Shown here: positions 46,736 to 64,000 of the stretch, piece by piece | How the letters are laid out: the number at the start of each line of letters is the position of its first letter | Position numbering within the stretch: the stretch's first letter is position 1 | Assembly: GCA_963422465.1 (NCBI GenBank) | Contig: OY730172.1 | Coordinates: 3,348,001 to 3,412,000 of the forward strand | Direction: 5' to 3' | Origin: Lichina pygmaea | Lineage: Eukaryota; Ascomycota; Lichinomycetes; Lichinales; Lichinaceae | DNA length: 64,000 bases | Position numbers and translations under genes: made by a program | The notes under the pieces: generated by a model | What the model was told of the DNA's origin: nothing | The model's database searches: none | What the model saw: only the letters and a program-made list of their open reading frames with translations

Positions 46736-47354
46736 TGTTGCGGTCCGTACCGTACCGTCCTATCCGAGAATAGGATTAGGGCGAGATGCGGAAGGCGGGT
46801 TGGTTCTCGCAGGAGAGGAGTGTCAAGGAGCGTGAAGGGGTTTGGTGGAACGTGGTGGTGGTGACACCTGATCAGTGGCTTCGTACAAGATTGTATTGAA
46901 GTAGATCTAGTTGTCTGGATCACAACATGAGTTGAAGACAATCGTTCCATAAGGGAACTATCGCCGGACTATATAGTGCTCAGTCCGTGAGCTCAGTGAG
47001 CTCTGCTCACTTTACTCACTCGGTGAGATCGGTGAGCTCTGCTCACTTTGCTCACTTGTTCATGCATGCTGCAGCGAGCTGGGTGAGCTCTGCTCACTTT
47101 GCTCACTCGTTCATGTATGCTGCAGCGAGCTGGGTGAGCTCTGCTCACTTTGCTCACTGTTCATGCATGCTGCGGCGAGCTGGGCGAGCTCTGCTCACTC
47201 TGCTCACGCATATGCATGCTGCGGCGAGCACCCTCTGGTCAGTCTCGCCGGTCACGTGACTGTTTCCCGTGTTATGCCGCCTGGTACTTCCGTCCAGTAT
47301 CCTGTCTGCTGCTTTCTGTGAGTATAAAGACTGTGTTCCTCCTGGGTCATAACA
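46736..47354 (-). repeat. LTR of element A (3' LTR)
   Basis: 619 bp, ending TG..CA in element orientation. It contains a tandem array of about 51-bp units (about 46985-47225) built on GTGAGCTCTGCTCACTTTG and TTCATGCATGCTGCAGC, five copies here. On the + strand it carries GTCACGTGAC (about 47252-47261) and GAGTATAAAGACTG (about 47320), a TATA-like box facing the antisense frame at 47398. Confidence 0.93.
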
Positions 47355-47397
47355 CTATCCTCCTCTCCATCTTTCATTGTCCTGATGAAACCTGGTC

Positions 47398-47802
47398 ATG
47401 TCTCCCAAGTCACGTGCGACTGTTAGCCGAACTCAGCTTGCTACTCAAATCCGCGATCAGGGTTTTGTTTCGCGTACGCCCTGCGACTTTTGTGTTCTCT
47501 GTGGTCGTCCGTGCTTCCAGATGCCGGGGGAAGACGATAAGTTGAAATGTGCTGTGTGCACTCAGCGTGGGAGGTCTTGTGTCTCTGTGTCCTGGGAATC
47601 TCTGAACATATTCTGGGACAACCTTCGTGAGGATGTGGCCGCTGAAGAGGTAACACGCAACGCACTCTTCGAACAACTTGCCGCGGTGCAAGTTCGTCTG
47701 TCCCGAAAGCGAAAGGTGTTGGAAGGCGCCGAGGTCCGTGCGAGGCAGAAGCTTCAGTGTCTGGTGAAAGAGATGGAGTCGGATGGCGAGGATTTGACTT
47801 GA
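47398..47802 (+). CDS. Antisense Zn2Cys6-like open frame of element A
   Basis: 134 residues on the strand opposite to gag-pol, starting 44 bp inside the 3' LTR and ending 37 bp before the integrase/chromodomain frame. Cysteines at 29, 32, 39, 51, 54 and 61 give C-x2-C-x6-C-x11-C-x2-C-x6-C, exactly the spacing of fungal Zn(2)Cys(6) binuclear clusters, with one extra Cys at 35. The second half reads CAVCTQRGRSC. A helical, Leu/Arg/Glu-rich region follows (about 65-125; EQLAAVQVRLSRKRKVLEGA), a probable coiled coil, and an acidic end. The basic residues usual between Cys 2 and 3 are weak here. Transcription from the LTR is inferred. It is part of a fossil; whether it is expressed is unknown. Confidence 0.65.
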   Translation: MSPKSRATVSRTQLATQIRDQGFVSRTPCDFCVLCGRPCFQMPGEDDKLKCAVCTQRGRSCVSVSWESLNIFWDNLREDVAAEEVTRNALFEQLAAVQVRLSRKRKVLEGAEVRARQKLQCLVKEMESDGEDLT

Positions 47803-47839
47803 TCAGTCATTGACGCATCCCTCCTGCAGGCTGAGCTGT

Positions 47840-48748
47840 TCAGTCCTGCTCCTGCCAAAACTGTCGCAGAAGAAGCTGGCAGTTCGCGAGGTTCTTGAGT
47901 GGTTCCCAGGTATTCTCCGAGTCTGGGTATCCTTTCCACTTGACAAGGTATCGCTGACCTTTCCTAGCCAGGATCTGTTCGACTTCGAACTCTTGTTCTT
48001 CTTCGGGTTGATAATGAAATGTTTCCTGCAAGGGTGTACTCTGGTCGGCTGGTTCAATCATCGATATATGAAAGTTTGGATGGACTCTGGCATCCCTTGG
48101 TAGTCGTATCTTGACATTGACTGGTCCTGTTTTCTCTTCGACTGAAAATAGTCTGACCTTGATATTGTCAAGTTTCTTCATCTTTGGCTTTTTTATTTTC
48201 CAATTTTTTGTGAGGAGGTAGACTTTATCCCCCTTCTTTAGCTGAGGTGCCATTTTCGATTTTTTGTCTATTTGACACTGTATTTTTTCTGAGGTCTCTT
48301 GAAGGTAGTGCCTTATCATCGTGTGTGTTTGTCGTAGGAGCTTGTCATGTTGGAGTGCTTTCTCCGCGTTTGGTGAAGCTCTGCTTGGTATTCTGATGTT
48401 CGCATATCGTCCAAAATTGGCAAAGAATGGTGATTCCTTTGTTGAGTCTGATCTGTGCTGGTTAATTGCCAGCTGTGCCACCGGTAATAACTGTACCCAA
48501 TTGCTGTGGGTCTGGTTGATGTAATACCGCAAATAAGTCTCCAGGACTTGGTTTGCTCGCTCCGTCTGGCTGTCAGTTTGTGGGTGATAGGCCGTAGACA
48601 TTTTGGGTTTTGTTCCCATGGCTGCACTGATTGTCTTCCAGTAGTTAGACATGAAGAGTTTGTCTCTGTCTGTAATGATCATGATTGGAACTCCGTGGTC
48701 TCTGACCAATCTGTCCAGTAAGAGGTGTCCCAACTGTTCTGCTGTGTG
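47840..48748 (-). pseudogene. Element A integrase core and chromodomain (part)
   Basis: The block includes DHGVPIMIITDRDKLFMSNY and TAYHPQTDSQTERANQVLE, hallmarks of the Gypsy integrase catalytic core, then a GPY-like region. It ends with a chromodomain (RYLVKWKGYPDSENTWEPLK) of the HP1-like type. Part of fossil A. Confidence 0.9.
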
Positions 48749-48761
48749 GGTCTCCTTGAAT
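48749..48761. repeat. LINE target-site duplication, left
   Basis: GGTCTCCTTGAAT, repeated at 52295-52307. The last T is shared with the LINE T run, so the length is 12-13 bp. Confidence 0.88.
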
Positions 48762-48928
48762 TTTTTTTGATTTGATTCTTACACTGTTTGTAGCTTTACA
48801 GCCATGCAGATCTTCCAGCTAATAGTGAACTTCTTCAGAAAACCTTTAAAGGAATAAAAACTGAAGACAGGGAGGTGACTAGAAAGTGTAGCAAAAGGAA
48901 ATCTTGTAGTGTCTGGTAGGAAAAGCTT

Positions 48929-50270
48929 CTAGATGTTGGAGTGTGAATAGTGAAGTTTGAAAGCCAGATTAAATTGGTTTAGTCTTTTCAAAGACATAAA
49001 CCAGTACAGAAACTTCTGTAGAAGCTCTGGGTTTGAAATAATAGTAGTGAAATCTTGGGGGTTAAAGAGAGCATGTTGTCTTTGACTTGAGTAGAGAGAG
49101 CATGAAGAGATGATATGCTTTACTGTCTCTTCTGCTTGACCACACATGCATAGGGGGGTAGGAAAGTCAGGGACTCCAGCTCTGAAAAGAAAACTTGCTA
49201 GACCAATTCTCCCAGTTCTGGTTTGCAGTAGTAGACTTGCCTCAGCTTTCTGTAGCTCTTTGTAGAGCTTTAGGTTGTTGTAGTGAGGTTTTTGGCAAAA
49301 CACCTGCCATCCAGCATAGCCTTTTCTTTTCTTCTCCTCCCATTGGTTTTCCCACTCTTTAGTAAAGAGTATTTGTAGTTCTTTCTTTGAACTAGCCTGG
49401 TTAGTAGTTATTTGACTTAACCAAGTGAACTTCCAATTAGGAGAGATAGTTGAGGATTTCTTTAAAGGTTTCCTCAGTGAAGAAGTATAGGAAGAAATAG
49501 TAGCAAAGGTACTGTCAAGAAAGTCTTTCAGAGAGGAGGTTTGGATAGAAGATAGAAAACAAGCTGTGCGAAATTTAAAATAGAGATCTAGAGGTAAAAG
49601 AAAAAGCTCACTCTCTAATAGAAAAGAAGGAGTGGCTTTGAAAGCACCCCCAATAAGTCTCAGACATTTGTTTTGGAATATGATAAGAGAGGAAATATTA
49701 GAGGATTTTCTGAGTGGGTTGAACCAAATTCCCACTGCATAGCTCAGTACAGATCTGAGTATTGCAGTGTACACAAGGCGTGCTGTGAGAACTGGAAAGC
49801 CCCAGGTGGAGTAAGAGGTTCTAGAAAGAGAAGATAGTGCTTTTTGTGCTTTTTGAAGAATAATTCTCTGGTGTTTGTGCCAGTGGAGTTTGGCATCCAG
49901 GTACACTCCCAATACTCGCACTTCTTCTTTTGGTTTTAGAATCACATTCCCAAGTCTAAGCTTGAGCTGCAGATTGTCTGATCTTCTTCTGGAAAAATGA
50001 AGTATTTCATATTTCTCAGGAGAGAAGACCATTCCATGTCTTGCAGCCCAAGATAGACATTTAAGATGTGTATTCTTCAACTTCAGAAGGTTGCTTTTAA
50101 GAGAGTGTCCAAATGCAAGCAGATTTGTATCATCTGCAAATCCCAGAGCAGAAACACCAGTAGTAGGAGAATGTACAGTCTCATGAAGTTCAGAAATATA
50201 GAATAGAAAAAGAATAGGAGACAAAGGGGAACCTTGGGGAACTCCACAGTGAATAGGAATAGACCACAGT
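48929..50270 (-). pseudogene. LINE reverse transcriptase, C-terminal half
   Basis: RT motifs from the GVPQGSPLSP block through FADDT, the thumb region and the C-terminal CMCG-x12-C knuckle are uninterrupted. The frame continues upstream past 50270 into the tandem-unit sequence, which is not RT-like. The final residues LNQFNLAFKLHYSHSNI are shared with the copies at 33.7 kb and 63.4 kb. Confidence 0.88.
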
Positions 50271-52084
50271 CGTACTATGCCAGAACATAGTGTAGAGTTG
50301 GCACCCCCCCACAGGGTCTCTACCACACTTTCCCACAGTCCCGAGGTCTCTTGCACTCCGCCGTACGTGCTCACCCCTGGGATCCTGCTTCGGAGCGCTG
50401 GGTCACCAGCCCAGAGCCCACGCTCCAACTGTAGTTTGCTCCCTGAGCTTATTGTTTGCAGCCTAAGCCTGCACTCTGTACGAACCGGCATGCGCATCTG
50501 TCCTCTCGGGCCATATAGACAGTCTCGTAGTAGGCCCAGGCCCTACCTCCGTCACTGCCATTATATGCCACGCCTCGCAGTTGTTAACTGTTTCGCGTTA
50601 CCTTCGCAGATCTCTCGTACGAAGGCCGACCATGCCTCGCAGGCCTTACAGACCCTGCAGGCTGTGCCAGCACCTGCAGGGCCGCCTTTCCAGTCCACTA
50701 ACCAAGTAGGGAGGAGTTCTCCTTGGTCCGCTGTCGCCTGTGGGGCCCCGGTTGCACCTGTTGGCCCACTGGATAACCCAGTCCCCTGGCCCCAGATTGT
50801 GGATCGTACGAAGAGACTTCGTGGCAAGGCCTTAGGCAAAACCATCAAGCTAGCACTTTGGCTATCACACGGCCCTTAGGCACTGGAGCGGCGACGTCTC
50901 CTCGTACGACCACTCTCCTTCTTTAACAGGTGGTCCGCGTTCGATTAACAACGCCGCGGTGCCAAGGCCACTCCCCCCCTAGCAGATCCTCACACGTTAG
51001 CTGGAGACTCTGCTAGGAGGGTGACATGACGAGAACTCCTCTCGACTACTCCAGAGGTGCCCTATCAGACGCCTAGACTTCACATCCACCAGCTGTGGGG
51101 CTGGCTTCGGGCCGTAGCGTACACGGTAGTCGTCTGTCGGGTGGTTTTCATCTCCCAAGCTTGGTCGCAGCCACAGTTGAGCTATGCCGAGGCATAGCGC
51201 AGAGTCGACATCCCGTGCAGGGTCTCTGCCACGCTTCCCCGCAGTCCTGAGGTCTTTTGCGCTCCGCCGTGTACGCTCACCCCTAGGTCCTGCTTCGGAG
51301 TGCCGGGTTGCCAGCCCGGAGCCCACGCTCCAACTGCAGTTTGCTCCTTGAGCCCGTCATTTGCAGCCTGAGCCTGCACTCTGTACGGACCGGCATGCGC
51401 TTCCGTCCTCTCAGGCCATATAGACAGTCTCGTAGTAGGCCCAGACCCTACTGCCGTCACTGCCATTATATGCCACGCCCCGCAGCTCTCGCTGTTTCAC
51501 GTTATCTCTGTAGATCTCTTGTACAGAGGCCGACCATGCCTCGCAGGCTCTACGGACCCTGCAGGCCATGCCAGCACCTGCAGGACTGCCTTTCCAGCCC
51601 ACTAACCAAGTAGGGAGAAGTCTCCGTCTGCCCGCTGTCGCCTGTGGGACCCCGGATGTACGTGGTGGCCCACTGGAGAACCTCCAGTGCCCTAGCCCCG
51701 GTCTGTAGGTGGCCCGAAGAGAATCTGTGGCAAGACCTTAGGCAAAACCATCAAGCCAGCACTTTGACTATCACACAGCCCTTAGGTACTGGAGCGGTGG
51801 AAACCCTTCGTGCCACCTGCTCGCCTTCTTTAACACGTAGTCCCCGTTCGATTAACAACGCCGCGGTACAGACATCACTCCCCTCCTAGAACAAGATCCT
51901 CGATGCATCAGCTGCTGGAGACTCTGCCAGAAGGGGGGTGTGTGATAGAAACTCCTCTTGTCTACTCCAGAGGTGCCCTGTCGGGTGTCTAGACTTCACA
52001 TCCACCAGTTGCAAGGCTGGCTTCGGGCCGTAGCGTACACGGTAGACATCCGTCAGGTGGTTTTCATAACCAGTTTGGTCGAAG
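50262..52084 (-). repeat. Two tandem ~910-bp units at the LINE 5' end
   Basis: Units at 50262-51171 and 51172-52084. Both contain GCCCACGCTCCAACTG, GGCCATATAGACAGTCTCGT, CACTGCCATTATATGCCACG and GGCTTCGGGCCGTAGCGTAC in the same order. The period is about 910 bp with clear divergence between units. Confidence 0.88.
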
Positions 52085-52294
52085 TCCTCTGTTCTGCTGA
52101 TGTCGCTTCACGGGGGTGTCCAGGGTGCCTGCACGACACCTCCGGTGGCCTGTCGCTCCACGGGCACCAGCAGCTTGACTGGTGACTCAATTAGCTCTCG
52201 GTGCAGCGACTACAAGCAGCTTGGGAGACTGCCTGCCATCGCTGCCCCGAGGTTCCCAGCCTGCACCGCGTGGAGGTTTGAGTCTTCGCAGGCC

Positions 52295-52307
52295 GGTCTC
52301 CTTGAAT
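52295..52307. repeat. LINE target-site duplication, right
   Basis: GGTCTCCTTGAAT, identical to 48749-48761. Confidence 0.88.
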
Positions 52308-53973
52308 AGTACCACTATCAGATATTTCATGAATCTGTCTGCTATCACCATAATTAAGTTGTAGGTGATTCCTGTGACTGTGTCTTTGGACTTGGGTAGC
52401 TTCGTGATGAAGTCTATTAACACATCTTCCCACAGGCCTCTTGGTATTGTGTTCGGGTGTCCTTCTCTATATGGCTTGTGTCTTCCGTGTTTGTTTTTCT
52501 GGCACAGTAGACATTTGCTGATGTAGCTTGTGACATGTTGTCAGAGGTTGATGATATTATTCCCTGCCCGTTAGATAAGGTCTGTAGTCTTGGTGATTCC
52601 TGGGTGACCATGTACTGGGTTGTTGTGGTAGTTCCTTATTAATTCTTCAGTGTCTTCTGCTGTGAGCTTGTTGATCTGTGGTCAAGGCACCAGGTTTCCT
52701 CACTAGTCCTGCTGTAAGATTGTTCCTTGGTGTTCATCATCTTCCATGTGGTCTTTTTGTCAGCTTAGTGTGTCTGCTCTCCTGTTGTCTTGTCCGGGGG
52801 TGTACAAGATCTTGAACTTGTGTTGCCCTAGGAGTTCAGCCCATCTGACTTGTTGTCTGTTCAGCTTCTTGGTTGTTATGAATGTTGTCAGATTCTTGTG
52901 GTCTGTGAGAACAGTGAGTTCAGAACTGCTTTCTGCGTACACTCTCCAGTGTTCAAGTGCGTTGACAACTGCCAGTAGCTCTTTGTTGTGGATATCATAG
53001 TTCTGTTCTGCTTGTGTTATTTTTTGTGAGTAGTAGGCAACTGGGTGCCACTTGTCATCTGCCTGTTGGCATAAACATGCTCCCACTGCCTGATCTGAAG
53101 TGTCTGTCTTGATTTGTGTTGGTTGGCCTGTCTTGAAGTTGAGGAGAACTGGTTCCTTGGCACAAGTGTCCTTGAGCTGCCGGAATACTTTTTGTTCTCT
53201 CTGTCCACCAGTACTCCACATCCTTCTTTGTGAGTTCTGTCAGTGGTGTTGCTGTCTGTGAGTAGTTCTTGATGAACTGTCAGTTGAAGTTGGCAAATCC
53301 TAGGAAGGCTTGTACTTTCTTGACTGATGTTGGTGTTAGCCATTGTTGAATCACTTTGATTTTCTCAGGGTTGATCTTAATCCCTTCAATTCCTATGATG
53401 TATCTGAGGAATTCAACTTCCGGTTTGTTGAACTTGTATTTCTTTAGGTTGAGCTTGAGCCCTGTCTTTTGTAGGTATTGTAGAACATCCTTCACGTGTT
53501 TGGTATGTTCCTGTTACGTGTTCAAGTAGACAAGAATGTTGTCTAAGTAGGTGATAGCTGTTTAGTCCAGGTGTGCTCTGATGATGTTGTTGATCAATGC
53601 TTGACATGTTGCTGGTGTGTTCGTGAGTCCGAATGGCATAACCAGATACTTGTAGTGTCTGTATCAGGTTCTGAAGGCTGTCTTCCATTCTTCTCCTTCT
53701 TTCATGTATATCAGGTTGTATGCTTCTTTCAAGTCCAGCTTGGTAAAGATTGTAGCTTGGCTGATCCTGTCTTGCAATTTGTTCGCATTTGGCAACAGAT
53801 ATCAGTTCTTGATAGTAATGTTGTTGAGTTTCCTGTAATCCACACAAAGTCGAAGACTTCTGTCTTTCTTTGGTACAAATAGTATTGGGTATCCTGCTGG
53901 TGATTAAGATTCTCGAATGAAACTCTTTTTCAGGTTTTCCTCCAGGTACTCACAAAGTACTTGGAGCTCTTTC
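52300..53973 (-). pseudogene. Element A reverse transcriptase, RNase H and integrase N-part
   Basis: Recognisable pieces include a connection region (FNKPEVEFLRYIIGIEGIK, VKKVQAFLGFANFN) and RNase H (NKELLAVVNALEHWRVYAES, ELTVLTDHKNLTTFITTKKL). An integrase start follows (LIDFITKLPKSKDTVTG). The region is broken in several places. Part of fossil A. Confidence 0.85.
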
Positions 53974-53978
53974 TCTGA
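53974..53978. repeat. Target-site duplication of element B, left
   Basis: TCTGA, repeated at 60286-60290. Confidence 0.92.
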
Positions 53979-54381
53979 TGTTAAAGGCCAGTCCACGTTC
54001 ACACAGAATGTGGGTGGTCCTGTCTTCGACCGAGGAGGGCAGGGACTCAATAGATGAATAGCAAGTGGGGTAACTCTCTTGCTATTGTCGCTTGTAATGT
54101 GCGTTCAGCCTGGAGAGCTAATCCCTCCGGGCTCTTTGGGGGTCTTTATACAGATGCCCCAAGGGGGGGGTCTCCTCGAGGGGTATCATCCTTTTGCGTA
54201 GACGAGCTCCTCGCTTAGCTCCTGCTTGTCCACCGGACAAGCTCCTCACTTAGCTCCTGCTTGTCCACCGGACAAGCTCCTCGCTTAGCTCTTGCTCGTC
54301 CACCGGATCGGTCGGATGTTGTTCCGCATGACTAACACCTCTCCCTCGCTTACCTGGGCTGTTCCGGCCTAGGCCTTAACA
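53979..54381 (-). repeat. LTR of element B (3' LTR)
   Basis: 403 bp, starting TGTTAAAGGCC and ending GGCCTTAACA on the + strand, short inverted ends. It contains a tandem of about 36-bp units with GCTCCTCGCTTAGCTCCTGC and TCCACCGGAC. Confidence 0.96.
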
Positions 54382-54505
54382 CTATCCCCTCCCTCCAAGG
54401 GTTCTGTCCCCAGATCCTTTTTGTTCCTGCTCCTCTTTTGCCATAAACCAAAGCCAGACAACTCGAACTCGTCGTCGCGGTTTTCTCTCTTGTCGTGTTG
54501 GCAAA

Positions 54506-55015
54506 ATGGGCAAGGAATCAAAAATCGCATGCGGTGCTTGTCGTCGCGACCACGCCAAGTGTGTCGTGAGTTCTGCATCGTCTTTTTGTTGTCAGTGCAT
54601 CGAGAAGGGTCGTCGCTGTGACCTTCATCTCTCGGAATCGGAATGGAAGAAGATGGAGCTTGAGCGTGAGCAGCTCAAGGCTCAGCTGCGGGAGACTGAT
54701 GACCAACTGTCAAAACTGCTTCCCCGGCAGATCTGCCTCTGCCGGCAGCTGGGTTGTCTCTCACAGAAGGAGGCTGATGCCATCCGTCGTGAGCTGTCAG
54801 CTATCAAGGATCAAGAGTCCCTCGATGCTCAGGAACAAGAGGCCCTCCACGTTATCCGTGAACAGGAGGCCTGTCAAGCTGCTGCTCCACTGTCCTTTGA
54901 GGACATCTTCTCTTCGGAGGCTTTGGCTTCTCTCGAGCTGTTGTCTCCGTCAGACCTGGTCGCTGCGGATTTGCTTGGTGGTAATCCACCAGTTTCTGGT
55001 TCATCGCAGAGCTGA
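54506..55015 (+). CDS. Antisense Zn2Cys6-like open frame of element B
   Basis: 169 residues on the strand opposite to gag-pol, starting 125 bp inside the 3' LTR and overlapping the chromodomain region. Cysteines at 9, 12, 19, 28, 31 and 38 give C-x2-C-x6-C-x8-C-x2-C-x6-C. The first half, CGACRRDHAKC, is an excellent match to fungal Zn(2)Cys(6) DNA-binding clusters (basic residues between Cys 2 and 3), and CIEKGRRC matches the second half. About 45-75 is Glu/Leu/Lys-rich (WKKMELEREQLKAQLRETDD), a likely coiled-coil dimerisation segment as in Gal4-type factors. The rest is acidic (LSFEDIFSSEALASLELLSP) and could act as an activation region. Expression from the LTR is inferred. Element A carries an analogous frame in the same place. 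Confidence 0.75.
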   Translation: MGKESKIACGACRRDHAKCVVSSASSFCCQCIEKGRRCDLHLSESEWKKMELEREQLKAQLRETDDQLSKLLPRQICLCRQLGCLSQKEADAIRRELSAIKDQESLDAQEQEALHVIREQEACQAAAPLSFEDIFSSEALASLELLSPSDLVAADLLGGNPPVSGSSQS

Positions 55016-56140
55016 AGTTCTCGGTTGGTTCCCACGAATTCTCCTCTTTGTCAAATCCTAACCACTTCACCAGGTACTCAGTTTTCCGTCCATTTCTCCG
55101 ACTGTCTAGGATCCTTTCGACATCGTACTCTTCTTCGTTGTCCTCGAAGTGCTATTTTGTTTCGATTGCTGCGTCGCTGGGTGCTGGCTTGAGCAGCGAG
55201 ACATGGAATACTCAGTGTATCCGTGCCTTTTTTGGCAGTCTCAGTCGGTAGTTGACTTCTCCAGTGCGCTTCTCAATCTCAAACAGTCCGATTCGTACAT
55301 GATCCAGCTTTTTGCTCGGTCGCTTCGAGCGCAGGTTTTTTGTTGACAAATAGACCTTATCCCCCCTCTCCAGGGTTGGTCCCTTCAACCTTTTGCTGTT
55401 TAGGCAGTGGCTTGTTGTCTTTTGTGTGGATTCAATTGCAGTCTTCATTTCCTCATGCATAGCAGTGAGTTTTTCGACGTTCGTTGAAGTGCCACTTCCA
55501 GCCGCCATCACTTCCCAGCGGGGGTTTCTGCCGTAGTTCGCAAAGAACAGTGTTGTGCCTGTCACGCTGTGTTGCTGATCGTTGTACGCAAACTGAGCCA
55601 TTGGTAGCAGTTCTACCCAATCGTCCTGTCGGTGGTTGACGTAGTGGCGTAGGTACTGTTCCATCGTCTGGTTTGTTCTCTCAGTTTGTCCATCTGTTTG
55701 TGGATGGTAGGCAGTAGACATCCTCGTGTCTATCCCTAGCTGTCTTGTCCACGTGTTCCAGAATTTCGAGGTGAAGAGTTTGTCTTGATCTGAGATAATC
55801 TTCGTGGGTAGCCCTCGCTGGCTAACCAATTCTTTGAGCAGGACATTGGCGAGTTCACTCGCTTTGTTACCGGGTCCTCTGACCTCGGCAGCTTCACCAC
55901 AAAATCCATTGTGATGGTATCCCAAGCCGCTTCTGGGAGGTCCATTTGTTGACTCTCTCCATAGGGTTTGTGGCGTGACAGTTTGTTTTTCGCACACTCT
56001 TCGCAGTTGCGAATAAATTCCGTCACTTTCCGCTTCATTCCGTTGAAGTGGTAACGTCTCCAGATCTTTTCCAGGGTCTTGTCTCGCCCAGGATGTCCGT
56101 GTAGAGGTCCATCGTGATGTTGTCAAATCATGTCCTCTTG
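54852..56140 (-). pseudogene. Element B integrase and chromodomain (part)
   Basis: Integrase core pieces (LPTKIISDQDKLFTSKFWN, STAYHPQTDGQTERTNQTME, WVELLPMAQFAYNDQQHSVT) and a GPY-like region, followed by a chromodomain (MKWLGFDKEENSWEPTENFS). Part of fossil B. Confidence 0.92.
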
Positions 56141-58400
56141 TGCGCTCTCTGGCACTTCTTCCTTGTTTGTGGCCGCAACATTGTGGCCTAGGGTCAGGAG
56201 TGCACCTATTTCTTCAGTTTTCGCTAACTGAGGTTGAGCATAGACCAGAGTTTGTCCTTTTGTCACAAGGATTGGGCGCTCTTCTGTCGTGTTGTCTGTC
56301 GTCATATCAGGCCGCCTGCTAAGCGCGTCCGCTCGTGCGTTTTCTGATCCTTTTCGATAGAAGATCTGGAAGTCGTATGAAGCTAAAAGCTCCGCCCATC
56401 AGACTTGTCGTCTGTTTAGCTTCTTCGTCGTCGTGAAGTAAGCCAAATTCTTGTGGTCTGAGTACACGTCCACTGTGTACTTTGCTCCTTCCAGGTAAGG
56501 TCTCCACTCCTGGAATGCATCGACAATCGCTAACAACTTCTTGTCGTGAACATCGTACCTGAGTTCTGGGCCAGAGAACTTTCTCGATCAGTATGCGACA
56601 GGGTGTAGGCGGTTTTCGGCGTCTGGTTGACACAAGCAAGATCCAAGTGCTTAGTCTGAGGCATCTGTCTCCATGATGATCCACTGTCCGGGATCAAATG
56701 ATGCCAGTATGGGTGCGGAGGTGAACTTCTCTTTCAGCTCCTGGAACGCTCTTTCTTGGCTGTTCCCCCATGTGAAGGTTTCTTCCTTCTTTGTTAGTTC
56801 AGTCAAGGGTGCTGCTGTCCTTGAGTACTCCTTGATGAATCGTCGGTAGAAGTTCGCAAATCCCAGGAAGGATTGGACTTCTTTGAGGTTTTTGGGTGTT
56901 GGCCAGTCTCGTACTGCCGTGGTTTTTGTATCGTCCATACGGATTCCTTCTGTCGTCAGGATCAATCCCAAATATTCCACTTCTTTCACGTGGAAGACAC
57001 TCTTATCAAAGTGTAACCTTATTCCTGCTTCTTGGAGCGCATGTAGAATCTTCTTGACATGCTGTCTGTGCTCCTCCAGGGTTCCATTGGTGTAAACCAA
57101 GACATCGTCGATATAAGCGGTAACAAATATATCCAGGTATTGTCGGAGGATGGTGTTAATAAGTGATTGGAACGTCGCCGGTGCATTCGTAAGGCTGAAT
57201 GGCATAACAGTATACTCGTAATGCCCGTACCTCGTACGAAAGGCTGTCTTCCATTCTTCGCCATCTTTCATCCTAACCAGGTTGAAAGCGCCTCAGATGT
57301 CGAACTTGGTAAACCACTTGGCTCCTTGGATTCAGTCCTGGATTTCCGATATTAACGGTAGCGGGTAGCGATTCTTAATTGTGATCGCATTAAGCTGCCG
57401 GTAGTCAACACACAGTCGTAATTTGCTGTCCTTCTTTGGCACAAACAATATCGGGTATCCGGCCAGTGATGTTGAAGGTCTTATGAACCCTTTCGCTAGG
57501 TTCTCGTCCAGGTAATCTCTTAAGGCCTCAAGCTCCTTTGCTGATAGAGCGTAAATAGGGCCATGTGTGGGTTTCTTTCCGTCTTCCAGCAGAATTTCGT
57601 GATCCCACTCTTGGTGTTCTGGTAGCGTCACGACCGCTTCCTCACCAAACATCTCCTGGTAGTCTTTATACTCACTTGGCAGCTGCGGTGCCTGAGTCTC
57701 GCCCACAGTGTCATGCGTGGTGCAAAGTTGATGGTTTCGGGGCTTCATCCAAGCCACATAGGCTTGCCCTCGCCGGTGGTGCTTCTTCCACCCTGCATAT
57801 GAGATCTCTTTGATTCTCACTTTCTCTGGCTCTGCTCGAGTTGCCAGACTCCTCTTCAGAAAGACTAGGTGCCTTCTTTTCCAGTCGATCCTTGGGTTTT
57901 GACTTTCCAACCACGGAAGACCCAATATAACTTCGTGTGGTATCTGGACCAAGTCGAATTCTTCTGATCTGATTGTCGTACTGTCGACACACAGTTGTAG
58001 GTTCTTGGTCTCCTTCATCACTTGTCCTTGGTCATTGGAGAGTGGTGTCCCGTCTACTACTGTTAGTTAGTATGGATTCCTCTTTTCCTGAGTCGGGATC
58101 TTGTGCTTCCTGGCAAAACTTTCTGACATGAAGTTGCCAGTAGCTCCAGAGTCAATCATGGCGTTTGTCAGATGCCCGTTGACTCTCATCCTGATGCGAA
58201 AATGCAGACTGCAGGCTGTCGCGTCAAGGCTCTGCTTGACCCCTTCTCTCCGGAGTGTTGTCTTGCCTGCTCTTCCGACTCCGGATTTGAAGAGCACTGC
58301 TAGTTTTTTGAACAACCAAGGCCCTGAGCCTGGCGTTCTGCCACGTGTCTTTCGCATTTTTCGGTGAAGTATAGCTCCCATGCGTCTTCTCCGCAATCAT
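56141..58400 (-). pseudogene. Element B protease, reverse transcriptase and RNase H (part)
   Basis: Protease: [59 protein letters not shown] and TAYIDDVLVYTNGTLEEH with the catalytic YIDD. An RNase H-like region follows. Broken in several places. Part of fossil B. Confidence 0.92.
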
Positions 58401-59010
58401 CGTGTTCTTTCCCTTGCTGGCTTAGCTGGTGCTTGATGCTCCAGGCTTTCTTGTGGTATTCTGGGCCAGGGAAGTAGTGCCTTCTCCTTTTCTCTAGGAG
58501 ATGTTCCTTGCAGTGGTGGTCCTCGCATCCTTTCCAATAAGGACGTCCGCAGGCTGGTGTTGTAGCCTGGTGATGGTCCACTTGCGCTGCGATGTCTCGG
58601 GGCTGTGAGATGCTGATGGTGTCATCCACCCATCGCGTCACTCTTGCTTCGCTGTCCTCCGACAAGGTCACATCCTGTCGTCGGAGTAGTGGTGTCTCGG
58701 GAACTGGTGGCATGCCGGTTATGTCAATCTTGTAGTCTGTTGTGTCGAATTCAGAGATCAGGTCATCCTCCCAATAAACCTTATCGATCTGGTCTTGGAT
58801 TGCGTGCAGGTCCTCCAGTGACCTCTGCAGATCGTTCTCCAGTCTTTCGATGTACTGTCTGAGATTGTCCTCCTGCCCGAGGAGTGTTGCTTCTGACCGG
58901 TTCATGGGTAGCGTGCCTCTGGGAGCCCTCGGTGGCTCCTGAATGCCCTTGCCTTTCCAGGCACCAGTGGCATTCAACTGCTTACCCTTGCCTTCCTTTT
59001 TCTTCTTGCT

Positions 59011-59844
59011 TTAGCAGTTGGCTGCAAGGTGTCCTACCTTCTGGCAATTGTAACACTTCCGTGTTTCTTTCTTCTTTGTTGCCTGTGGTGTTGTTGCATC
59101 GATCTCCATGGGTGTCAAGCTGTACTTGTCTTGTGCTGGCGCTGTCTTTTTGCCCCATGGCCTTGCATGCTTGCCTCGCTTCTTGAGTTCTCGTTCGAAT
59201 TGTCGGTCGTCGATGCGTACCGCTGTGTTGATCATATCCTCGAGGTCGGTGGGTCAGTCTCCTCGTGCGATGTCATCCTTGACTTGTTCCTTGAGAGCTT
59301 GGTAGAATAGTGCCGTCAAGGCACTGTCTCCCCATTGCGTCCTCACTGACAACTGTTGGAACTTCACCGCGAAGTCTGATACTGACCCTGTCTGCCGTAG
59401 TGCTTGGAGCTTTCGTTCCGCATCTTGTTCTTCATCAATAACCCTGAAGGTCTTCTTCATCTGGGTCTTGAAGGTAGAGAATCTCCCAATGATCTGCCGT
59501 GTCGTGGTCTCCATGCTAGAGGGGTCTTCCTTGTTGTTGAGGAAGTCTCGTAGGTAGACATTGAACCAGGCAAATGTCAGTCCGTCCAGGTAGGAAGCTG
59601 CGAACAGCACCTTCTCCTGTTCCGTAGGGAATTGTGTGGCGTTGAATCTGTAGTAAAGCTCAAGCTGAGAGAAGAATAATTCCAATCCCCCTCGTGATCC
59701 ATCGTACCTCTTCGGCGTACCTACCTTCAACGGCTTTGGAGGTAAGGTGAGGGTGGTAGGGACAGGTGGTTCCTGGACTTGCGCCTGAGGCGCAGCCCGA
59801 ACTTGGCCTGCCTGCGAAGAGGTAGGGCTGCGTGGATCTGCCAT
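59011..59844 (-). pseudogene. Element B gag (capsid and zinc knuckle)
   Basis: A Ty3/Gypsy retrotransposon gag region (LELFFSQLELYYRFNATQF, YLDGLTFAWFNVYLRDFL) and a CCHC knuckle, CYNCQKVGHLAANC. Part of fossil B. Confidence 0.92.
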
Positions 59845-59882
59845 CGTATTGAGCCGGTGTCCTATGTGTTAGAGGCTGAAAC

Positions 59883-60285
59883 TGTTAAAGGCCAGTCCAC
59901 GTTCACACAGAATGTGGGTGGTCCTGTCTTCGACCGAGGAGGGCAGGGACTCAATAGATGAATAGCAAGTGGGGTAACTCTCTTGCTATTGTCGCTCGTA
60001 ATGTGTGTTCAGCCTGGAGAGCTAATCCCTCCGGGCTCTTTGGGGGTCTTTATACAGATGCCCCAAGGGGGGGGTCTTCTTGAGGGGTATCATCCTTTTG
60101 CGTGGACAAGCTCCTCGCTTAGCTCCTGCTCATCCACCGGACGAGCTCCTCGCTTAGCTCCTGCTCATCCACCGGACGAGCTCCTCGCTTAGCTCTTGCT
60201 CGTCCACCGGATCGGTCGGATGTTGTTCCGCATGACTAACACCTCTCCCTCGCTTACCTGGGCCGTTCCGGCCTAGGCCTTAACA
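59883..60285 (-). repeat. LTR of element B (5' LTR)
   Basis: 403 bp, same ends and length as 53979-54381, about 96.5% identical by eye. Confidence 0.96.
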
Positions 60286-60290
60286 TCTGA
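60286..60290. repeat. Target-site duplication of element B, right
   Basis: TCTGA, identical to 53974-53978. Confidence 0.92.
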
Positions 60291-60416
60291 TAACTGGTAA
60301 ATTAGTCCAAATTCTGGCTCTGTCCCTGGTTACAACTTGATCTCATAATCCCAAGGTTGGTGCTTAGGTAACACTGCTGTTGTTGTCTCTTCCTGAAAAA
60401 GGTTATCATACCCAGG

Positions 60417-60965
60417 TCAGTACTCTTCAGGGATCTCCAGAGGGTTAACAACTTCCTCTCTCTTCATCTCTGACTGTTTGGCCACCTGGTTCTGGGGTGT
60501 GCCTGTCAAGGTGGACCTCTTCTCTTGAGAGTCATCCTTTCTGTCAGTGAGGTTCCACTGAGGACTCCTTCCCTTATCTGTCCACACCTTCTGCGGCTGG
60601 TAACAGGTCTGAGCTGTGTTGTTAGTGCAGTTCCTAAACATGAGTACTCCTGTCCTCCAGTTAACAACTGGGTTGTACTTCTTTAGCCAAGGCATCCCCA
60701 AATAGATATTCTGAGTGGCCAACTTGACAATATCAAGGTAGATCCTTTCAGCATGGTGTCCAGTAACTGTTTCCATTGGCTGCGTCTTATGGCAGACTAG
60801 CTCTGTCTGTCTATTTGCTATCGCAAGCTGATAGGGCTGCTGCTTGCGTCTTCTTCCAGTGCCTAGGGTGTTGTAAAGTTGTCTTGAAATGTAGTTTCCA
60901 CTGGCTCCAGAGTCAACAAGTGTGTATGTCTGTACTGGCGTGTTGGTGTGTAGTGACACAGGCAA
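60417..60965 (-). pseudogene. Element A protease region
   Basis: Contains TLVDSGASGNYISRQLYNTL, the aspartic protease active-site region, and IYLGMPWLKKYNPVVNW, the retropepsin flap/GMPW segment of Gypsy elements. Part of fossil A. Confidence 0.88.
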
Positions 60966-61729
60966 TCACAGGTACTTTGTGTTGCTAGGGGCCATGTTGT
61001 TGAGCTCCTGATGTCACCCCTTGACAAGGGAGTTCAATCTTTTCCTGTTTGAAGTGTTTTTCCACTGACTGGGCAATGGGTCCAGCCATTGCCATCAGTT
61101 CTGAGGAATCTGTTCATGAATTTGTCTTGCTAATGCTTGTTACATCCAGGCTTGAGGCAGTACTGCCAATTGTTGATGTAGCAGTTGTGGTTGTTGCCTT
61201 GCTGTAGGAACATAAGGTATTCATGCCAATCATGTGTATGCCCAGGGAATGTGGTGTGTTGGTGTTTGTCCCAGAGATGGATCTCACACATATCCTTCTT
61301 GCAGTTGACCCAATGTTTATGGCAGGTGGTGTGGTAGGGTGAATGTTCTCCATATCTTTGTAGTTGTTCGTGGTAGGTGCAGTAGTGCTTTGTACAAAAC
61401 CTTCACTGTAGTTCACCATGCTGTAGGTTTTGTGGGTCTATACTGTAAGTATAGCTTCCTTGTGGTATTTCTTCTTTGATAGATGCGGGTTCATCTCAGT
61501 CCCCATCAGAGGTGGTTAAGGGCTCCTGTCCCTTGTCCTGACCTGTCTGTTCTGGTAGGTCCTTACCTCCTGATGTTGCCAGTTGGTGGGCTGCTTCCAA
61601 TATCTGATTGTAGTCATCCTATTGTTTGAGGGATAGCTGAGCCTCTCCTAGTGGGTCCTCTGGCTTGATGAGATTCTAGTCTCTGTCAAGTATATTAAGT
61701 TGCTGTCAGTGCACCTTGTTCTTTGAACA

Positions 61730-62533
61730 ACAGTCTCTCGCCATGTGGCCTAGCTTGCTACAGGTGTAGCACTTCAGTGCTTTCCCCTTCTTGTTGTTCC
61801 TTCCCTTCATGAACCTTCCCTTGTGGTGGACTGCATCCAGTTCCATGGGTGCATTGCCATATGGGTCATGTGGCAGTGCCTTGTTAGGTAGCTTGTAGTG
61901 GTTGCTCACATGCTATGCAGGGTGGCTGTATCCTCTGTCATAGTATTTCTCCATCACTCACTTGAATAGTTTGTCATTGATGTTGATTGCTTGTGTGATA
62001 AGCTTGTCCAGTGTGTTGACTGCTTGTCTGTCAAAGGTGATTTCATCCTTCATGTTTTCCTTGAGTCCACGTCAGTACATGACTATCAGGGCATTGTTAT
62101 CCCAATCAGTCAGTACTGAGTATTGTTTGAACTGTGTAGTGTACTCTACAGCTGAGTGTTGTTGTTTGATGTGCTGGATTATTCGTATAGCCACTTTGTC
62201 TTTGTTAGATAGTCCAAGGATTCTTTTGATCTTGTCCTTGAATTGTGTCCATTTTGTCATCTATTCTGTTGTGCTGTCGTGGTCTCTGTTTTCTGAGAGA
62301 TGTCTGTTGACGTAGAGCTTGATCCATTGATAAGTATTACCTCTTATGTAAGTGGTTGCAAAGAGGGGCCACTTCTCCTTTGGCAGCTTCATCTCTGGTT
62401 GGAATTGAAAGTAGACTTGGAGTTGCATAAGCCAGTCATCAACCTTGTTTCTTTCACTGTAGAACAGGTCTGGCTTGGTGACACTAATCTTTCCATCTGG
62501 GAAGTTGGGGTTGGTTGCTCCTGAGGTACTCAT
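61730..62533 (-). pseudogene. Element A gag region
   Basis: The N-terminal part has FYSERNKVDDWLMQLQVYFQ and PLFATTYIRGNTYQWIKLYV, typical Gypsy gag. The CCHC knuckle CYTCSKLGHMARDC is at about 61730-61771. Part of fossil A. Confidence 0.88.
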
Positions 62534-62551
62534 CCTTAAGGGTCTTCAAAG

Positions 62552-63221
62552 TGTTGCAGTCTGTACTGTACTGTCCTATCTGAGTATAGGATTAGGGCAA
62601 GATGTGGAAGGTGGGTTGGTTCTCGCAGGAGAGGAGTGTCAAGGAGTGTGAAGAGGTTTGGTGGAACATGGTGGTGGTGACACCTGATCAGTGGCTTTGT
62701 ACAAGATTGTATTAAAGTAGATCTAGTTGTCTGGATCACAACATGAGTTGAAGACAATTGTTCCATAAGGGAACTATCACCAGACTATATAGTGCTCAGT
62801 CTGTGAGCTCAGTGAGCTCTGCTCACTTTGCTCACTCAGTGAGATCAGTGAGCTCTGCTCACTTTGCTCACTTGTTCATGCATGCTGCAGCAAGCTGGGT
62901 GAGCTCTGCTCAATTTGCTCACTTGTTCATGCATGCTGCAGTGAGCTGGGTGAGCTCTGCTCACTTTGCTCACTTGTTCATGCATGCTGCAGTGAGCTGG
63001 GTGAGCTCTGCTCACTTTGCTCACTGTTCATGCATGCTGCGGCAAGCTGGGCAAGCTCTGCTCACTCTGCTCACACATATGCATGCTGCGGCGAGCACCC
63101 CCTGGTCAGTCTTGCTGGTCACGTGACTGTTTCCCATGTTATGCTACCTGGTACTTCTGTCCAGTATCCTGTCTGCTGCTTTCTGTGAGTATAAAGACTG
63201 TGTTCCTTCTGGGTCGTAACA
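62552..63221 (-). repeat. LTR of element A (5' LTR)
   Basis: 670 bp. It has one more 51-bp internal unit than the other LTR (six versus five), which accounts exactly for the 51-bp length difference. It is depleted of CpG relative to the left copy. Confidence 0.93.
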
Positions 63222-63272: not shown

Positions 63273-64000
63273 ATTTTTTTTTGATTTGATTCTTACACTG
63301 TTTGTAGCTTTACCGCCATGCAGATCTTCCAGCTAATAGTGAACTTCTTCAGAAAACCTTTAAAGAAATAAAAACTGAAGACAGGGAGGTGACTAGAAAG
63401 TGTAGCAAAAGGAAATCTTGTAGTGTCTGGTAGGAAAAGCTTCTAGATGTTGGAGTGTGAATAGTGAAGTTTGAAAACCAGATTAAATTGGTTTAGTCTT
63501 TTCAAAGACATAAACCAGTACAGAAACTTCTGTAGAAGCTCTGGGTTTGAAATAATAGTAGTGAAATCTTGGGGGTTAAAAAGAGCATGTTGTCTTTGAC
63601 TTGAGTAGAGAGAGCATGAAGAGGTAATATACCCTACTGTCTCTTCTGCTTGACCACACATGCATAGGGGGGTAGGAAAGTCAGGGACTCCAGCTCTGAA
63701 AAGAAAACTTGCTAGACCAATTCTCCCAGTTCTGGTTTGCAGTAGTAGACTTGCCTCAGCTTTCTGTAACTTTTTGTAGAGCTTTAGGTTGTTGTAGTGA
63801 GGTTTTTGGCAGAACACCTACCATCCAGCATAGCTTTTTCTTTTCTTCTTCTCCTATTGGTTTTCCCACTCTTTAGTAAAGAGTATTTGTAGTTCTTTCT
63901 TTGAACTAGCCTGGTCAGTATTTATTTGACTTAACCAAGTGAACTTCCAATTAGAAGAGATAGTTGAGGATTTCTATAAAGGTTTCCTCAGTGAAGAAGT
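63273..64000 (-). mobile_element. Tad-like LINE, 3' part, open at the window edge
   Basis: The same family and orientation as 48762-52294, starting from its T-rich end (TTTTTTTTGATTTGATTC). It encodes the same RT C-terminus (for example TGRIGLASFLFRAGVPDFPT and the CMCGQAEET knuckle) through a 124-codon frame, 63443-63817. It differs from the other copy by scattered substitutions, including changes that end the frame near 63817. It continues beyond 64000. Confidence 0.92.

Follow-up and report, generated by a model that had tools for sequence, protein, structure and literature searches.

Two nested Gypsy retrotransposons with chromodomain-like pol ends (elements A and B) in the ascomycete Lichina pygmaea each carry a gene antisense to gag-pol, next to the 3′ long terminal repeat (LTR). 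They lie in a stretch of 64,000 nucleotides (contig OY730172.1 of assembly GCA_963422465.1, positions 3,348,001 to 3,412,000 of the forward strand), referred to here as the window. Both antisense frames are genes and not chance open frames, and from the residues that they conserve and from profile comparisons we take their product to be a remote Zn2Cys6-like protein. We give somewhat better than even chances to the interpretation that this protein is an element-encoded, GAL4-like regulator that controls the bidirectional LTR promoter of its own element through a tandem array in U3. The two frames, supported by cysteine spacing and homologs, are as follows.

47398..47802, plus strand: antisense frame A, with a six-cysteine cluster and a helix-like stretch, 134 amino acids in the window copy
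54506..55015, plus strand: antisense frame B, with a six-cysteine cluster containing RRDHAK, a helix-like stretch, and an acidic/hydrophobic tail

A preliminary description of this DNA claimed an exact six-cysteine spacing for both frames and an antisense position beside the 3′ LTR, and both observations were confirmed. The cysteines are arranged as C29-x2-C32-x6-C39-x11-C51-x2-C54-x6-C61 in frame A and as C9-x2-C12-x6-C19-x8-C28-x2-C31-x6-C38 in frame B; RRDHAK is present in the latter, and both frames are on the plus strand with pol on the minus strand. The limits first assigned to the frames were too short, as both genes are longer by homology to the proteins of relatives. Homology to relative P0073 spans 47398-47895 in A, and homology to relative P0003 spans 54443-54994 in B, where the protein of relatives starts at 54443. 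Frame B overlaps the end of pol at 54852-55015. The longer A protein of relatives also enters pol (from 47840); frame A of the window copy does not. In relatives, both genes end within the last part of pol, with identical overlap phase. In both genes, pol covers neither the zinc cluster nor most of the helix, so selection on these parts can be measured without interference.

Copies were sought in the L. pygmaea assembly (G000; 32.5 Mb in 8 contigs). A and B denote the window families, A′ comprises L069-L071 and L079, A″ comprises L072-L074, L077, and L078, and family C comprises L061-L066, L075, and L076. Two copies with indels (L006 and L011) were left out of the A counts; L067, which falls between B and C, was aligned and counted in no group, and L068 joined B for the cysteine count only. 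With the frame A stretch as query, the best 40 of 377 first-look candidates were scored and all had at least 90% identity; with the frame B stretch, the best 40 of 252 were scored and all had at least 94%. A C-type protein identified 61 copies at 85% identity or above, 53 of them without a stop, and three A-type proteins gave at least 150 scored matches each. Since queries with the antisense gene itself are circular, its presence was assessed using pol as the query and scoring the best 40 matches each (from 436 first-look candidates for B pol and 642 for A pol). The antisense gene adjoined pol in all 40 of the best B pol matches (23 B-type and 17 C-type, matched by eye) and in 38 of the 40 best A pol matches (22 by eye and 16 of the remaining 18 by tblastn). 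The other two A pol copies (L086 and L098), possible cases of truncation or loss, gave no tblastn match to such a gene across the 701 bases next to pol.

The six cysteines are kept in 66 of 71 copies (25/28 A, 29/31 B, 6/6 C, and 6/6 A′/A″). Outside pol, the +1 frame is open in 28/30 B, 6/6 C, 3/3 A″, 0/3 A′, and 5/28 A copies. No other frame is open in most B and C copies (frame -3 is open in 13/30 B copies), and in A all frames other than +1 have stops in each of the 28 copies. In the antisense frame itself, 15 of these 28 A copies have no stop before codon 135. Among the A copies (L001-L030), a stop occurs at codon 135 in 23/28 and at codon 105 in 12/28; these recurrent stops reflect either repeated CpG loss at hot spots or truncated versions passed on to later copies. 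Outside the assembly, identical six cysteines were found in three predicted proteins, P0105, P0146, and P0183, whose top identities to the best 150 own-genome matches per search were 65%, 72%, and 35%, respectively. These proteins may come from related strains or other species. P0183 has 175 residues, the six cysteines, and a WESLN motif, and with at most 35% identity to the scored A-type frames it is possibly the antisense gene of a distant element.

Selection was measured between families and only outside pol, using 30 x 6 pairs of B and C copies and 28 x 3 pairs of A and A″ copies. The mean dN/dS of the antisense frame was 0.12 in both comparisons, the minimum among the six frames each time. 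Because dS was near saturation (1.7 and 1.9) and saturated pairs were excluded from its mean, pN/pS is the safer measure; its values were 0.27 for B versus C and 0.28 for A versus A″. The differences between families were densest at third codon positions of the antisense frame, and four chosen pairs gave pN/pS of 0.23-0.28, with upper 95% limits of 0.33-0.38. Neutral evolution was simulated for two pairs, preserving the kinds of change and the CpG context (2000 runs each). The simulated pN/pS had means of 0.79 and 0.83 and minima of 0.43 and 0.48, and the observed values were never reached. The next-lowest frame (-2) shares its third positions with the antisense gene and has stops in every copy. 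Purifying selection on the antisense frame, for which the preliminary description had proposed a dN/dS test, is therefore evident in two between-family comparisons. At the pol end, pN/pS was 0.41 for B versus C (24 pairs) and 0.16 for A versus A″ (8 pairs), so pol is not clearly under tighter selection there than the antisense gene, though its protein is more alike. Within families, the ratios were near those of other frames, as expected of dead copies. Changes within families were mostly in a CpG context (C to T before G in 162/255 and G to A after C in 110/198 for 28 A copies; 155/165 and 138/166 for 30 B copies), and within-family dN/dS is of little use because the copies decay nearly neutrally.

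Zn2Cys6 clusters are defined by the spacing CX2CX6CX5-12CX2CX6-8C, which is found in both frames. All 17 aligned members share the six cysteines, one tryptophan, and two leucines. A Pfam search of the two window frames returned no Zn_clus row up to E = 10, and 5 of the 17 members matched Zn_clus at E ≤ 1, all below the cut-off. A profile of 17 diverse members (A5) was then compared with 177,635 distinct PDB sequences, and GAL4 chains occupied ranks 1-4 of 30 (E 0.0029-0.0077). The GAL4 fragment scored 20.1 bits against A5, and 60 shuffles that kept the cysteine columns averaged 1.1 bits and reached at most 9.4, so the similarity to GAL4 extends beyond cysteine spacing. When P0068 alone was compared with PDB, all six matches were Zn2Cys6 proteins (E 0.088-0.9), and its alignment with GAL4 spans the cluster, the linker, and the helix. 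The narrower B/C profile (A1) placed a RING finger protein first and LEU3 fourth (E 1.3), all at E ≥ 0.5; only the wider A5 reaches GAL4, and A1 does not single out Zn2Cys6 proteins. Together, selection and profile similarity supported the earlier proposal of a retained, element-encoded antisense protein in which a GAL4-like cluster is followed by a helix-like stretch.

Direct homology of the A and B proteins was not established by hhalign comparison of A1 with profile A2 (probability 7%, E 0.005). Common descent of the two genes is nevertheless likely from their position, the equal overlap phase with pol (expected by chance one time in three), the shared tryptophan and helix, and the joint profile. 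The gene may have been captured from a host factor, as the preliminary description suggested; the 32.5-Mb genome contains 27 Zn_clus loci (E ≤ 0.001), a number below that expected for a fungus, and neither window frame is among them. DUF3716 (PF12511) was also considered as a parent family and rejected: it gave one weak match (13.8 bits in the A-type protein P0073, cut-off 22; 1 of 17 members at E ≤ 1), and the spacing at its loci is unlike that of the frames (three of the four loci viewed have C-x2-C-x9-C, and one is longer). The genome has 14 loci of this cysteine-rich domain, 9 of them above the cut-off (L080-L083 are examples).

The LTRs of both elements contain tandem arrays and TATA-like boxes, as follows.

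46979..47229, no strand assigned: array of tandem repeats (36 bp x 2.2 and 51 bp x 4.0) within the LTR of A; its dyad is GTGAGC-TCT-GCTCAC
46970..46975, minus strand: TATA-like box for sense (gag-pol) transcription of A, beside the array; read on the other strand, the motif is a TATA too
47323..47328, plus strand: antisense TATAAA in the A LTR, 75 nt before the ATG of frame A
54145..54150, minus strand: TATA-like box for sense transcription of B
54201..54307, no strand assigned: array of tandem repeats (35 bp x 3.1) within the LTR of B; its dyad is CTTGTCC-ACC-GGACAAG

A U3 tandem array was found in all seven LTRs examined, from five families. The units are 51 bp x 4.0 in A, 35 bp x 3.1 in B, 69 bp x 2.0 in two C copies, 42 bp x 2.5 and x 3.5 in two A″ copies, and 42 bp x 4.9 at 73% match in A′. 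In A, B, C, and A″, a sense TATA-like box is found no more than about 90 nt away from the array; the sense TATA-like pattern finds no box in the A′ copy. The antisense TATAAA is located at -75 in 29/30 A copies (at -80 in one copy) and at -79 or -80 in 6/6 A′/A″ copies; its distance from the LTR end, measured in four A-type LTRs, is 32 to 36 nt. It is retained in both A and A″ though their distal LTRs are only 56% alike. Dyads with a three-base spacer are present in the arrays of A, A″ (TCGAGA-TTG-TCTCGA), and B. The A LTR contains five GAGn-N3-nCTC sites, compared with a null mean of 0.38 and a maximum of 4 in 500 null runs. In A, the dyad is GAGC-N3-GCTC, and the inner arm bases are C.G in 96 of 99 sites counted in 30 copies; in A′/A″, it is GAGA-N3-TCTC, with A.T in 7/7 sites from three copies. 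The two arms have thus changed in step, as would be the case if a symmetric dimer read the site. C shares the half-site GGACGAGC with B, and GGACRAGC half-sites number 3 and 4 in C and 5, 8, and 10 in three B copies (14 in the whole window). Counted regardless of the array, inverted repeats number 8 in A (null mean 1.5, maximum 7) and 7 in one A″ copy (maximum 6).

The array and the antisense gene differ together between families. A and A″ share 240/245 positions (98%) in the proximal LTR, 195/348 (56%) in the distal LTR with the array, 311/441 (71%) in the antisense gene, and 248/300 (83%) in the pol end. For B and C, the corresponding values are 199/219 (91%), 112/179 (63%), 240/345 (70%), and 267/290 (92%). 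In the pol segment at 55250-55850, 17 C-type copies are 98% identical to the window copy, as are 22 other B-type copies. Because pol is equally close, the genes are 70% alike, and the arrays differ, B and C are, as judged from these alignments, one element backbone that carries either of two cassettes, each made up of an array and an antisense gene. The difference between the cassettes is most simply explained by exchange through recombination. Elsewhere, the promoter-proximal LTR of A (46736-46980) is 97-98% identical to L078:358-604 of A″, and the pol ends differ at about 45% of synonymous sites; this combination indicates that part of an LTR was recently exchanged between the families and that the breakpoint was at the array.

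Under the interpretation favored here, the antisense mRNA would start in the U3 end of the 3′ LTR and would encode a small GAL4-like protein with a zinc cluster, a helix that is probably a dimerizing coiled coil, and an acidic/hydrophobic tail. The dimer would bind repeats of the tandem array in U3. This array is upstream of the sense core promoter, and A-type elements have it between their sense and antisense TATA boxes. Binding to the array would jointly control genomic RNA and the mRNA of the protein itself, and the protein would most likely be an activator or an anti-silencer. A broader proposition, to which we assign somewhat less than even chances, is that fungal chromoviruses carry a complete miniature GAL system, with an antisense Zn2Cys6 regulator and a matching array in a bidirectional LTR promoter. 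Copies with the same pol would swap and re-target this system as a single cassette, and each type would then drive or shield its own copies and not those of related types. LTR retrotransposons would thereby have their own version of the arms race seen with VANC and VANDAL elements.

Several findings weigh against regulation through the array. The best Zn_clus (PF00172) score was 14.9 bits (P0068) and did not reach the cut-off of 21, so the HMM search suggested in the preliminary description gave no Zn_clus assignment to the window frames or to relatives, and single GAL4 matches are weak. The antisense LTR promoter of that description fits the TATAAA of A-type 3′ LTRs and finds no counterpart in the four B and six C copies examined, where no antisense TATA box occurs in the 200 nt next to the start. 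Because an array multiplies a single motif, its sites are not independent, and tandem copying can spread a single event. Inverted repeats clearly exceed shuffles only in A and one A″ copy; those in B equal the shuffle maximum (6), and those in both C copies, the other A″ copy, and the A′ copy are within the null. C is also without the strict N3 dyad (0 in both LTRs). CGG triplets are usual in the sites of Zn2Cys6 factors, and the A and A″ dyads lack them. Array and gene may travel together as neighbors rather than as co-adapted parts, and linkage alone can explain their association. Among the A copies, only 5 of 28 stay open as far as codon 166, and each selection test represents one independent evolutionary contrast.

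We consider it rather unlikely that the gene, while selected, has another nuclear job, such as import of the pre-integration complex or target choice, with the U3 arrays serving host factors. Some antisense proteins of plant elements are described as nuclear, with role not known (PMC7264820), and the gene and array lie side by side, so an exchange would carry both without any functional link. Against such a role stand the similarity to GAL4 beyond cysteine spacing, the concerted change of the dyad arms between A and A′/A″, and the differences in both array and gene between B- and C-type copies despite nearly identical pol. A protein that binds the array and represses, holding copy number or genomic RNA low, would share the whole anatomy described above and is less probable. 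HBZ, a bZIP protein of the retrovirus HTLV-1, counteracts Tax, and repression would fit that comparison; however, the B/C tail, read by eye, looks like an acidic activation domain, though it partly overlaps pol and is constrained by it. That the antisense RNA alone matters, through double-stranded RNA or silencing, with the frame incidental, is very improbable: a review raises such a role for antisense transcripts (PMC7264820), but protein-level selection in two comparisons (dN/dS) largely contradicts it, and the six cysteines are widely kept. Chance open frames opposite pol can be dismissed, since, although opposite-strand frames arise easily (as with -3 in B) and the number of stops is weak evidence by itself (P 0.047 and 0.099), selection is seen in a part outside pol, simulated neutral evolution does not reproduce the pN/pS of that part, and diverged relatives occur outside the assembly.

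Antisense genes at this place are already known, in plants (Grande, Retand) and in Botrytis (Boty brtn). To our knowledge, VANDAL elements do not belong to the LTR retrotransposons, nor VANC to the Zn2Cys6 proteins; VANDAL/VANC is the nearest working example of the regulation proposed here, with binding that was measured for VANC and is a proposal here, where arrays, dyads, and a shared cassette were observed. VANC of Arabidopsis VANDAL is reported to act in anti-silencing and to bind DNA sequence-specifically, with target tandem repeats that differ between related families (PMC5735166). Boty-like elements of Botrytis are described as fungal Gypsy elements with a CHROMO domain and the antisense gene brtn between pol and the 3′ LTR (Zhao et al. 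2011, as cited in PMC7264820, PMC4227169, PMC8365987, PMC5987419). They resemble the present elements in having one extra antisense gene at this position in a fungal Gypsy element, whose pol end here is chromodomain-like; the accounts in the citing papers, on which this comparison by description is based, mention neither a Zn2Cys6 cluster in BRTN nor arrays in the LTRs. The plant aORF-3R genes (Grande gene23, RIRE2, Retand TRP28, PvRetro13) likewise lie antisense between pol and the 3′ LTR. They are described as present in most copies of a family, with some products nuclear or with predicted DNA binding, and about half of the Retand elements studied have tandem arrays between pol and the 3′ LTR (PMC7264820, PMC11963269). 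Position, strand, presence in most copies, and protein conservation are all shared with the genes described here, whereas the protein families are others, Retand is by its description a non-chromovirus, and its arrays lie between pol and the LTR rather than in U3. The antisense gene of HTLV-1, a retroelement gene whose product HBZ is described as nuclear (PMC11963269), was offered as an analogy in the preliminary description; position and strand agree, and nothing beyond these does, with no common ancestry suggested. GAL4 and the other fungal Zn2Cys6 factors (PF00172) share the six-cysteine spacing, the basic first loop (in B/C), and the following helix, and are the best PDB matches of the profile; the antisense proteins differ in falling below the Pfam cut-off, in being encoded by a retrotransposon in antisense, and in having fewer than 200 amino acids.

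Among the matches listed from the open PMC literature, no zinc-cluster or Zn2Cys6 antisense gene of this kind was found, nor were the protein class, a selection test, and U3 arrays found together. The role of antisense genes beside 3′ LTRs is a question in plants and fungi alike. Here, a selected frame of a named DNA-binding class is accompanied by candidate sites a few hundred bases away that are exchanged with the gene, which reduces the question of role to a simple binding test. If the proposed regulation is correct, Zn2Cys6 factors would be retrotransposon tools as well as host regulators.

The elements that carry the two genes are arranged in the window as follows.

46736..63221, minus strand: element A, Gypsy element with a chromodomain-like pol end and gag-pol on the minus strand (LTR pair; 5-bp flanks CCGTG and CTGTG)
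46736..47354, minus strand: 3′ LTR of element A
62552..63221, minus strand: 5′ LTR of element A
47840..48778, minus strand: pol C-terminal frame of A, with the integrase end and a chromodomain-like stretch, read by eye
53979..60285, minus strand: element B, a second Gypsy element with a chromodomain-like pol end, of another family, nested in A (LTR pair and target-site duplication)
53979..54381, minus strand: 3′ LTR of element B
59883..60285, minus strand: 5′ LTR of element B
54852..55151, minus strand: pol C-terminal frame of B, with a chromodomain-like stretch, read by eye

The ends of all four LTRs were placed by reading the sequence. Element A is broken up by element B and other insertions, and its two LTRs are 87% identical, gaps included. 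The LTR pair of element B shows 96.5% identity, and the target-site duplication is TCTGA. The stretches read by eye as chromodomain-like are YLVKWKGYPDSENTWEP in A and YLVKWLGFDKEENSWEP in B, and the C-terminal pol pieces of the two elements have 43% identity across 224 residues. Inserted within element A, a minus-strand frame of 537 residues at 48929-50542 appears by eye to be a piece of a non-LTR reverse transcriptase (FADDTN). A duplicated block occupies 50383-52067, with a spacing of 904-916 bases in all five repeat families. A 300-base repeat with 99% identity occurs at 48761-49060 and 63275-63574, 14.5 kb apart, with one copy outside element A.

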